From: Bdellovibrio sp. ZAP7
GTDB lineage: Bacteria > Bdellovibrionota > Bdellovibrionia > Bdellovibrionales > Bdellovibrionaceae
DNA: 64,000 bases
NCBI RefSeq assembly: GCF_006874645.1
Contig: NZ_CP030082.1
Coordinates: forward strand, 1,240,001 to 1,304,000
Direction: 5' to 3'
A model generated the notes under the pieces. The model did not search any database and had not been told where the DNA came from. It was given only the letters and a program-made list of their open reading frames with translations. Position 1 is the first letter of the stretch. Each line of letters begins with the position of its first letter. Shown here one piece after another: positions 9,153 to 37,473 of this stretch. Position numbers and translations under genes: made by a program.

Positions 9153-9202
9153 GGTAACAGTTCCCTTTTTGTACTGCGATGCGGAACCGATGCGGTTCCG
9201 CA
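9153..9202. repeat. Dispersed palindromic repeat, copy A, plus adjoining hairpin
   Basis: GGTAACAGTTCCC at 9153-9165 is followed by TTTTT and a 9-bp hairpin, TGCGGAACC / GGTTCCGCA (9180-9202). The same 13-mer occurs at 20991 (reverse) and twice at 23005-23057. Here it also ends the PLD gene and may serve as a terminator. Confidence 0.7.
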
Positions 9203-9224
9203 CGCACAATAAGGGGCTAAAAAT

Positions 9225-10013
9225 CTAAACCATTGTTTTAAGCAGGCCGCCTTCAACTCTCATAGCAGAACCTGTGATAGCAGACGCTTCATCGGTCGCA
9301 AGGAAAGCCACGACATTGCCGATTTCTTCAGGGCGAATAAAGCGCTGAATGATCGAAGTTGGACGAGCGGTTTTAAAGAAGCCCTCTTCAACTTGTTGTT
9401 CAGAGATATGATCTTTCTCGGCTAATTGTTTTAGGAATGTGCCAACGCCTTCTGATTTCGTTGGTCCAACCAAGACAGAATTTACGGTTACATTCGTGCG
9501 CGCCGCTGTTTCAGCAAGGCCACGGGCTAAAGCCACTTGCGCGGTTTTTGAAACTCCATAGTGAATCATCTCTGTTGGAATTTGCAACGCAGACTCGCTG
9601 GAAATAAAGATCACACGACCCGCGTTCTTTTTCATCATGCGCGGGAAATAATGACGAGAGAGGCGGGCACCCGACATGAAGTTTCCATTCCACATTTTTT
9701 CCCAGTCCTCATCGCTGATATCAGCGAACTCTTTAGGTTCAAAGATACCAAAGTTATTTACCAAAACTTCCACTTCCGGGAAAAGCTCGGTCACTTTGGA
9801 AATACCAGCCGTGGTTGTAAGATCTGCCGCAACTCCATGAAGGGAGGTTTTGTTTGCGCCAGATTTGATAAGCTCATTGATGGCGTTATTCACGCGCTCT
9901 TCCGTGCGACCGTTGATGATCACATCGAAACCTTTTTTCGTCAGGCTTTGCGCGATGGCGAAACCAATTCCAGCCGTGGAACCTGTGACTAATGCCAATT
10001 TATTTTTTTTCAT
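9225..10013 (-). CDS. Short-chain dehydrogenase/reductase
   Basis: 262 residues with a complete classical SDR signature: TGSTAGIGFAIA cofactor loop (residues 10-21), NNFG at about 89-92, catalytic Ser in ISSESALQ, YxxxK as YGVSK, and the C-terminal GSAMRVEGGL. It would oxidise or reduce an alcohol or ketone with NAD(P)(H); substrate unknown. It follows the DoxX gene by 7 bases on the same strand, so the two form an operon. The LysR gene divergent from them is the likely regulator. Confidence 0.92.
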   Translation of the reverse strand: MKKNKLALVTGSTAGIGFAIAQSLTKKGFDVIINGRTEERVNNAINELIKSGANKTSLHGVAADLTTTAGISKVTELFPEVEVLVNNFGIFEPKEFADISDEDWEKMWNGNFMSGARLSRHYFPRMMKKNAGRVIFISSESALQIPTEMIHYGVSKTAQVALARGLAETAARTNVTVNSVLVGPTKSEGVGTFLKQLAEKDHISEQQVEEGFFKTARPTSIIQRFIRPEEIGNVVAFLATDEASAITGSAMRVEGGLLKTMV

Positions 10014-20975: not shown

Positions 20976-21003
20976 GGCGCATTCCAAAAAGGGAACTGTT
21001 ACC
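20976..21003. repeat. Dispersed palindromic repeat, copy B (reverse orientation)
   Basis: GGGAACTGTTACC at 20991-21003, preceded by GGCGCATTCC and five A. Read in reverse it matches copies A and C, including the flank GGAATGCG. It lies between the acetyltransferase and hutI. Confidence 0.7.
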
Positions 21004-22819: not shown

Positions 22820-23005
22820 ATGAATAAACGCGGTCAGATCGTGGTGGAGTACGTGCTCCTCCTCGTCATTGCAACGGGCGTAGCAGCTTTGCTCGTCAGT
22901 CAACTTGTCAGTCGTAACACTGACAAGCCAGGCGTTTTAACGGCTCAGTGGCAATTGATTCTTAATGCCGTTGGTGCCGACATTCCAGATTCCAATAAAA
23001 AATAG
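22820..23005 (+). CDS. Flp/type IVb pilin-like peptide
   Basis: 61 residues. The start MNKRGQIVVEYVLLLVIATGVAALLVS has the Flp prepilin pattern: a short basic leader ending in Gly, then G-XXXX-EY with Glu at mature position 5 and a hydrophobic helix of about 20 residues. A mature length of about 55 residues is normal for Flp pilins. No tad or prepilin-peptidase gene lies in the window. It could be the major pilin of a dispersed system or a TadE-like pseudopilin. Its stop codon lies inside the palindromic repeat that follows. Confidence 0.6.
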   Translation: MNKRGQIVVEYVLLLVIATGVAALLVSQLVSRNTDKPGVLTAQWQLILNAVGADIPDSNKK

Positions 23006-23060
23006 GTAACAGTTCCCTTTTCGGAATGCATCGCATTCCGAAAAGGGAACTGTTACCTAT
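23002..23060. repeat. Dispersed palindromic repeat, copy C: perfect 59-base hairpin
   Basis: Two 28-base arms (23002-23029 and 23033-23060) are exact reverse complements with a three-base loop. Each arm contains GGTAACAGTTCCC followed by T4 and CGGAATGC. The TAG stops of the two converging genes (23003-23005, and 23057-23059 on the minus strand) both fall in the outer ends. It can act as a bidirectional transcription end. Confidence 0.9.
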
Positions 23061-23827
23061 AGGAATGGATTTCCGCGTTTGTGGATTTCTTCTTCGATCG
23101 CTGCCTGCATTTTCTCCTGAATATCCTGGGCAATTTCATGCACCAATTCAGCGTCTTCAACCGCTTCCGGTTTGTAAGGCAGGTGAATCGGTTCCAAGAA
23201 ACGAATGCGCCATTTTGCTGGCAACGGGATGATATTCAAAGGCAGTGGAATCACCGAGCCTTTTAGGAATTTGGTGAATTTAAGCTTCTTAAGATTGATA
23301 TGAGTTTCTTCAGCTCCCAAAATCACCACCGGAACAATGGGGCTTTGGGTTTCTAAAGCCATACGCACGAAACCGCGTTTGAACTCCTGCAATTGATAGC
23401 GTTTCGAAGTCGGTTTAAAATTTCCGGCTTCGCCCTCCGGAAAAAGAACGATGGCATTTCCTTTTTTTAGGGAGTTCACGCCGTTTTCATAAGTCGCTTC
23501 CGTGAAACCCATTTTGTGAGCGGGGATAGCGGTCGTTTCTGTTAAAAACCAAAAATGATGAGTCAAAACCCTTGGAACGCGTTTACCTTCTTGTTGCACG
23601 ATGTGCCCAAGCAAAAAAGCATCGAATCCAGAGTATCCCGAGTGATTAGGAGCAATCACGCAGGCACCACGGCGGGGAATATTTTCGGCCCCTAAAATTT
23701 CCATACGGAAGTATTTGCGAAGGATCTCAAGCAGAAAACGGGGCAGCACTCGAAAGATTAAGGTGTCCTTGTCGAGGTTCTTCAATCCGAAGATTTTTTC
23801 GTTGGGTTTCTGCAAGAAATTCATCAT
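23057..23827 (-). CDS. PlsC-like lysophospholipid acyltransferase
   Basis: I start at the ATG pair 23827/23824; the longer frame to 24049 is antisense to glpK. About 257 residues. The acyltransferase motif NHSGYSGFDAFLLG (His with downstream Asp, spacing as in the MGAT-like branch of the family), then LFPEGEAGNFKP (the substrate-binding FPEG block) and VPVVILGAEE are present. It would acylate a lysophospholipid, probably at the inner membrane. It is divergent from glpK across 51 bases, linking glycerol-3-phosphate formation and lipid synthesis. Confidence 0.85.
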   Translation of the reverse strand: MMNFLQKPNEKIFGLKNLDKDTLIFRVLPRFLLEILRKYFRMEILGAENIPRRGACVIAPNHSGYSGFDAFLLGHIVQQEGKRVPRVLTHHFWFLTETTAIPAHKMGFTEATYENGVNSLKKGNAIVLFPEGEAGNFKPTSKRYQLQEFKRGFVRMALETQSPIVPVVILGAEETHINLKKLKFTKFLKGSVIPLPLNIIPLPAKWRIRFLEPIHLPYKPEAVEDAELVHEIAQDIQEKMQAAIEEEIHKRGNPFL

Positions 23828-23878
23828 GATAATTCTCAGGCCCCATGTTGCTTCATCGATAGTTTTTGAGGTGAATTT

Positions 23879-35217: not shown

Positions 35218-35220
35218 ACT

Positions 35221-35255
35221 GCAATATCCACCTCCGCTGCGGAGGTGGGAATTGC
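35221..35255. repeat. Very stable intergenic hairpin
   Basis: CCACCTCCGC / GCGGAGGTGG with one central base (35228-35248), extended by GCAAT / ATTGC at the outer ends. No T tract follows, so it is a REP-like or mRNA-stabilising element rather than a simple terminator. Confidence 0.7.
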
Positions 35256-35275
35256 AAAACATTAAGACTGATAAA

Positions 35276-35312
35276 TAAAAAAGGCCTCTGAAGAGAGGCC
35301 TTTTCTTTTTTG
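35276..35312. terminator. Bidirectional terminator
   Basis: AAAAGGCCTCT-GAAG-AGAGGCCTTTT with T runs on both strands, between two converging genes. Confidence 0.9.
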
Positions 35313-35330
35313 GAATCTGAAAAGTCTAAA

Positions 35331-36372: not shown

Positions 36373-37473
36373 CTAAACATTGAAACGGAAGAATAAAACG
36401 TCGCCGTCTTTCACGACGTACTCTTTACCTTCGACACGGTATTTGCCCGCATCTTTTACCGCTTGCTCGGACTTGTAAGTGAACAAGTCTTCACAGTGAT
36501 AAGTTTCCGCACGGATGAAACCTTTTTCGAAGTCCGTATGGATCACGCCCGCTGCTTGTGGAGCTTTCGTGTTTGCACGGATTGTCCAAGCACGAACTTC
36601 TTTTTCGCCCGCTGTGAAATAAGTTTGAAGGCCCAACAAAGTGTAAGCTTCGCGGATCAAACGATTCAAACCTGGCTCTTCAGCACCCAAAGCTGCCAAG
36701 AAGTCTGCGCGATCTTCCGGTGGCAACAATGCGATCTCTGCTTCCATCGCAGAACAGATCATGATCGTTTTATTGTTCTCTTCAGCAGCGCGAGCGATAA
36801 CGGATTTAGTCCAGTCATTGCCACCAGCTGCGAAGTCAGAATCAGAAACGTTCATAGCATAAAGAACTGGTTTAGCAGTCAACAAATGCATTTCTTTAAG
36901 AAGGGGAGCCTCGAAATCGTCCAAAGTGACTGAGCGAGCTGGAAGACCTTTACCCAAAGCTTCTAGAACTTTCTTAGCGACTTCAACTTCCGCTTTCAAT
37001 TTCTTGTCAGTGGAGTTCTTAGCTTGTTTTTCGATACGTTGAAGACGTTTTTCAACTGAATCCAAATCAGCTAGCAAAAGCTCTGTGTTGATGATTTCGA
37101 TGTCACGGATAGGGTCTACAGAGCCCGCAACGTGCACGATATTTGGGTCGTCAAAGCAACGAACCACGTGAACGATCGCATCTGTTTGACGGATGTGAGA
37201 AAGGAATTGATTCCCCAAACCTTCACCTTGGGAGGCACCTTTAACAATCCCCGCGATATCCACGAATTCCATTGTCGTTGGAATTACTTTTTGTGGCTTG
37301 ATGAAGGAAGTGATCTTATCCATACGAGGATCTGGAACTGTTACAACGCCCACGTTTGGATCGATAGTACAGAAAGGGTAGTTGGCTGCCTCAGCCTTAG
37401 CTGAAGTCAACGCATTGAAAAGCGTACTTTTACCAACATTCGGAAGACCGACGATACCGACTTGTAAAGCCAT
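36373..37473 (-). CDS. ychF: Redox-regulated ribosome-binding ATPase YchF (OLA1 family)
   Basis: 366 residues. P-loop [15 protein letters not shown] (residues 8-22), ATP-specifying NMSD-like segment MNVSDSD, G2/G3 region [25 protein letters not shown], and the C-terminal TGS domain ending [13 protein letters not shown]. This GTPase-like protein hydrolyses ATP and binds ribosomes. It follows pth on the same strand by 44 bases, the pth-ychF order found in many bacteria. Confidence 0.97.

Follow-up and report, generated by a model that had tools for sequence, protein, structure and literature searches.

A probable REPIN-like mobile repeat between converging flp-like and plsC-like genes of Bdellovibrio

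The hairpin at the flp/plsC junction

The window analysed here is a 64,000-nt stretch (G000:C1:1240001-1304000) of a closed 4.12-Mb Bdellovibrio genome, G000. Two converging genes meet at a hairpin at window positions 23002-23060, and its arms (23002-23029 and 23033-23060) are 28 nt each, 100% complementary and separated by a loop of 3 nt, confirming the perfect palindrome described in the initial annotation. On the plus strand, a small Flp-like open reading frame of 61 amino acids (22820-23005) ends in a TAG at 23003-23005 that overlaps the left arm. On the minus strand, a gene for a PlsC-like acyltransferase (23057-23833) ends in a TAG, seen as CTA on the plus strand at 23057-23059, that overlaps the right arm; both stops had correctly been placed inside the arms, one per strand. 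The plsC start was inferred (ATG ATG), and the mechanical reading frame extends to 24049. As for the gene names first given, PlsC-like is borne out by a clear family match (PF01553, E=4e-18), whereas the Flp-like assignment remains weak, its family match falling below the cut-off (Class_IIIsignal, E=0.001). The named records closest to this plsC come from Bdellovibrio.

The hairpin is a doublet of two inverted units around the 3-nt loop, each with the 13-nt core GGTAACAGTTCCC (left copy, 23005-23017, plus strand; right, inverted copy, 23045-23057, minus strand). Compared with shuffled sequence, its fold has a z-score of -11.8 as DNA and of -10.3 as RNA (-52.1 kcal/mol); the core taken by itself has no stable fold. 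The A-rich end of the flp reading frame (22993-23004) forms a T-rich tail past the hairpin on the minus strand, and this may be an intrinsic terminator for plsC only: on the minus strand, but not on the plus strand, the stem is followed by a T-rich run, to which flp codons contribute. A search for an Rfam family for the hairpin gave only sub-threshold chance matches to unrelated hairpins, and the junction DNA had zero matches among phage records.

A repeat family and its linked transposase

The core belongs to a repeat family, with 24 exact copies in the 4.12-Mb genome against about 0.12 expected at random and none for a reversed-core control. Two other exact copies lie in the window, as had been noticed from the sequence, and both are single copies common to G000 and its nearest relative, G022: one (9153-9165, plus strand) lies 3 nt past a TAA stop and the other (20991-21003, minus strand) between two tandem genes, upstream of a hutI-like gene. 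A two-mismatch core at 37333 is at chance level, and a nested GGAACCGCNGCGGTTCC motif, considered as a repeat family, is none, having a single site.

Six close inverted core pairs occur in G000, five of them spaced 40 nt between core starts, so the family contains inverted doublets with a preferred spacing that can form a hairpin. Each unit combines conserved A/G-GGTAACAGTTCCCTTTT with an inner arm that varies more, and the inner arm TTTTCGGAATGC of the junction hairpin also occurs in other copies in the genome. Across nine 53-nt pairs from three genomes, inner arms vary yet stay paired (96%), with 11 cells altered on both sides, a level reached in 0 of 500 shuffles. Such conserved ends with compensatory changes inside are also found in REPINs (Bertels and Rainey 2011, PMC3116915).

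Of the ten Y1_Tnp genes in G000, only one is flanked by the GGTAACAGTTCCC repeat. This gene (G000:C1:2474784-2475434), a single-copy reading frame of 216 amino acids encoding a Y1/HUH transposase, lies between cores in inverted order (left at 2474697, plus strand; right at 2475419, minus strand). Its product matches PF01797 (Y1_Tnp) over the cut-off and REP_Tyr_transpos (E=2e-21) slightly under it, with 76 bits for NF047646 (cut-off 80); it also matches the solved E. coli TnpAREP structure 4er8 (E=2.6e-5). Beside their tyrosine, RAYTs carry the motif NP(L/V)(R/K)xG (PMC2817692), and the Bdellovibrio protein, with its motifs SNHYH (HUH) and YVFRNPVRAG, combines this motif, HUH and the Y1_Tnp domain in the manner of a RAYT (TnpAREP). 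A RAYT flanked by the same repeat is likewise found in G021 and G010. In all three genomes, the C-terminal residues KGTVT of the transposase are encoded within its own right-hand repeat.

We compared 24 genomes of the genus, one per species (labelled G000, G021 and so on). The cognate transposase (70-100% identity) is present only in G000, G021 and G010, which contain 24, 36 and 14 cores, respectively, including close inverted pairs in each. In G022 and G011, which have only transposase relatives of 34-41% identity, the core occurs 5 and 11 times, respectively, and never as a close inverted pair; it is absent from 19 genomes. The genus offers a natural series, from transposase and pairs, through probable transposase loss with unpaired copies only, to neither, in which the correlation between transposase and copy state rests on five related genomes. 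At homologous sites in G022, five of the six G000 pairs are absent and the sixth, at flp/plsC, is reduced by a 40-nt deletion; the G022 stretches compared contained no homologue of the G000 copy at 2425150 or of that at 3443875. The whole transposase unit is missing from its homologous site in G022 and was likely lost there, because G010 has the unit at that site. The evidence on mobility is presence or absence between species, and a repeat missing from a relative can also reflect loss.

Taking copy number, pairing, linkage and distribution together, we conclude that the junction hairpin is very probably a non-autonomous, REPIN-like mobile repeat whose cognate enzyme is most likely the transposase at 2474784-2475434. 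The family resembles the REPINs of RAYTs (PMC3116915) in its inverted doublets that form a hairpin, its linked single-copy RAYT and its singletons as remnants; it differs in having no GTAG-type motif, in its tens rather than hundreds of copies and in its shorter spacing of 40 nt between core starts. Its repeats lie mainly at the 3' ends of converging genes and can overlap TAG stops, as do the GTAG REPs and BIMEs of E. coli and Pseudomonas, but the hairpin is a near-perfect long palindrome of two units without a GTAG foot, and neither side of A/G-GGTAACAGTTCCCTTTT has a conserved GTAG or GTGG there. As in IS200/IS605 elements, imperfect palindromes enclose a gene for an HUH/Y1 transposase; unlike those elements, the transposase gene of G000 is single copy and was not seen to move, and only the end repeats have multiplied.

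The available text on TIRtrons and TIRYT (BMC Genomics 2013, 14:522, PMC3733652) describes RAYT-like genes between non-GTAG inverted repeats, some of which form families with dimers. In G000, too, a RAYT-like gene lies between inverted repeats that are unrelated to GTAG REPs and form a genomic family, and the likeness extends to moderate copy number, dimers and a repeat overlapping the 3' end of the transposase gene; the GGTAACAGTTCCC sequence family itself was not found described in that text. Because it fits this non-GTAG description, as far as the available text gives it, and lacks the GTAG foot that marks classical REPs, the GGTAACAGTTCCC repeat is a new sequence family of an already known RAYT-linked type and no new device. 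Among the available papers, a search found no joint report of Bdellovibrio with RAYT or REP, its one match being about Sinorhizobium. Our results place RAYT-type repeat families in this predatory genus.

The junction in relatives and the placement of the repeat

Most relatives have hairpin-free flp/plsC spacers of 2-58 nt. In G007, the same junction is occupied by a pair (G007:C1:65060-65132) of a second RAYT-linked repeat family, AGGTGCCTGSTTCTTTT, and in G017 by a half copy of it; this family is present in 10 of the 24 genomes and also flanks RAYT genes. The junction therefore appears to be a recurrent landing place for repeats. Hairpins unrelated to that of G000 occur here in G007, G019, G002 and G010. 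Those of G019 and G002 are unproven as repeats because each is a single exact pair in its own genome with the patterns used, and repeat status is likewise unsupported for the G010 hairpin.

The G000 hairpin could also be a selected bidirectional transcription end, either a terminator or an mRNA 3' stabilizer, serving both genes. It is very stable, its minus strand has the T-rich tail, and unrelated hairpins occur at this junction in the four genomes just named. Converging genes, moreover, flank 10-11 of 16 core sites (with the transposase unit excluded), an enrichment over the 12 converging pairs among 60 window gene pairs (binomial p about 2e-4 or less, with the same crude caller used for both counts). 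However, the flp direction has no T tail, most relatives manage without a hairpin here, and the same element is also found between tandem genes and, once, between divergent genes; selection against insertion elsewhere is another explanation of the placement. We consider a selected transcription end very improbable, and the designed bidirectional end suggested in the initial annotation finds no support. An effect of the hairpin on the flp and plsC mRNAs is possible, as translation is reported to be slowed by E. coli REPs that lie no more than 15 nt from a stop (PMC12306157).

Alternatively, the hairpin might be a passive palindrome that arose when a single half repeat was duplicated locally in inverted orientation, with a G022-like state as the ancestor. 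Its perfect arms would suit such an origin, as would the G022 junction, where half a hairpin with one core and an 11-nt spacer is left and the stops are those of G000. Yet the G022 form corresponds to an exact 40-nt deletion between the short direct repeats GTTCCCT and GTTACCT, the inner arm TTTTCGGAATGC occurs in other genome copies and is absent from the G022 junction, and the cognate transposase has likely been lost from G022. This makes a local duplication very improbable, and we retain the mobile repeat as the preferred explanation.

Stop codons at the edge of the repeat

The overlap of both stops by the element edges had raised the idea that an insertion created them, truncating or extending the two genes. 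At this junction the idea fails because G021, which has no repeat and an unrelated 41-nt spacer, has a TAG at the identical codon of each gene (NPFL*, PDSNKK*); identical stops in a repeat-free relative had been named in advance as the observation that would speak against it. An NPFL/NAFL-type PlsC end is common across the genus, and in other relatives plsC has the same end residue followed by TAA, TAG or TGA. Even though a repeat did supply a new stop at another locus, we give creation of the flp and plsC stops almost no credence; to judge from these comparisons, they predate the element, which sits exactly between them.

Mapping the 24 cores against gene ends, as had been recommended, gave 11 gene stops that overlap the core edge, with gene ends called by a simple ORF caller. 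They occur at just two offsets, TAG finishing on the first G or TAA within GGTAAC, a pattern that is partly built in because the core has no further stop in that direction. Six of the overlapped genes have a repeat-free homologue in G022, and in five of these the position of the stop is unchanged, although its spelling often differs between the two genomes (TAA to TAG or TAG to TAA). The sixth, a minus-strand gene, received a new stop from the repeat at G000:C1:3594675-3594727 (...LKSAKAPR* versus ...LKSAKSKNY* in G022).

TnpAREP cuts and rejoins single-stranded REP (PMC8266576), and by analogy we infer that the transposase at 2474784-2475434 mobilizes the GGTAACAGTTCCC repeat. The doublet would fold as a single-stranded hairpin, and the enzyme would cut and rejoin the folded strand, copying or moving the doublet. 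Copies would settle at the least harmful places, chiefly 3' ends between converging genes. The outer edge encodes stops in two phases (TA|G after T, and TAA inside GGTAAC), so that a copy can lie against or across the end of a gene and leave the protein no longer than before, and gene-end copies would survive because the edge halts translation in two of three frames. Once the transposase gene was lost, pairs would decay into halves and singletons, with G022 as a candidate example. A mobile palindrome of this kind can occupy gene ends at almost zero cost to proteins.

It is conceivable, if rather doubtful, that the edge has been shaped to end genes, its two-frame stops letting the transposase seed copies exactly on the stops of converging genes with protein length unchanged, while the opposite direction stays open and encodes the KGTVT of the transposase. 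According to the available text of PMC3733652, most REPs are located between genes that are unidirectional or converging, in the latter case within 20 bp of both 3' ends, and the termini of GTAG REPs often supply TAG stops to flanking reading frames.

Smaller inverted repeats were also seen. After the single copy at 9153 comes a nested hairpin of smaller size, GCGGAACCGATGCGGTTCCGC (window 9153-9225), and similar hairpins of the GGAACCGC type adjoin other single copies. At window positions 35220-35321, two inverted repeats are neighbours, one with 18-nt arms at 89% and one with 28-nt arms at 75%.
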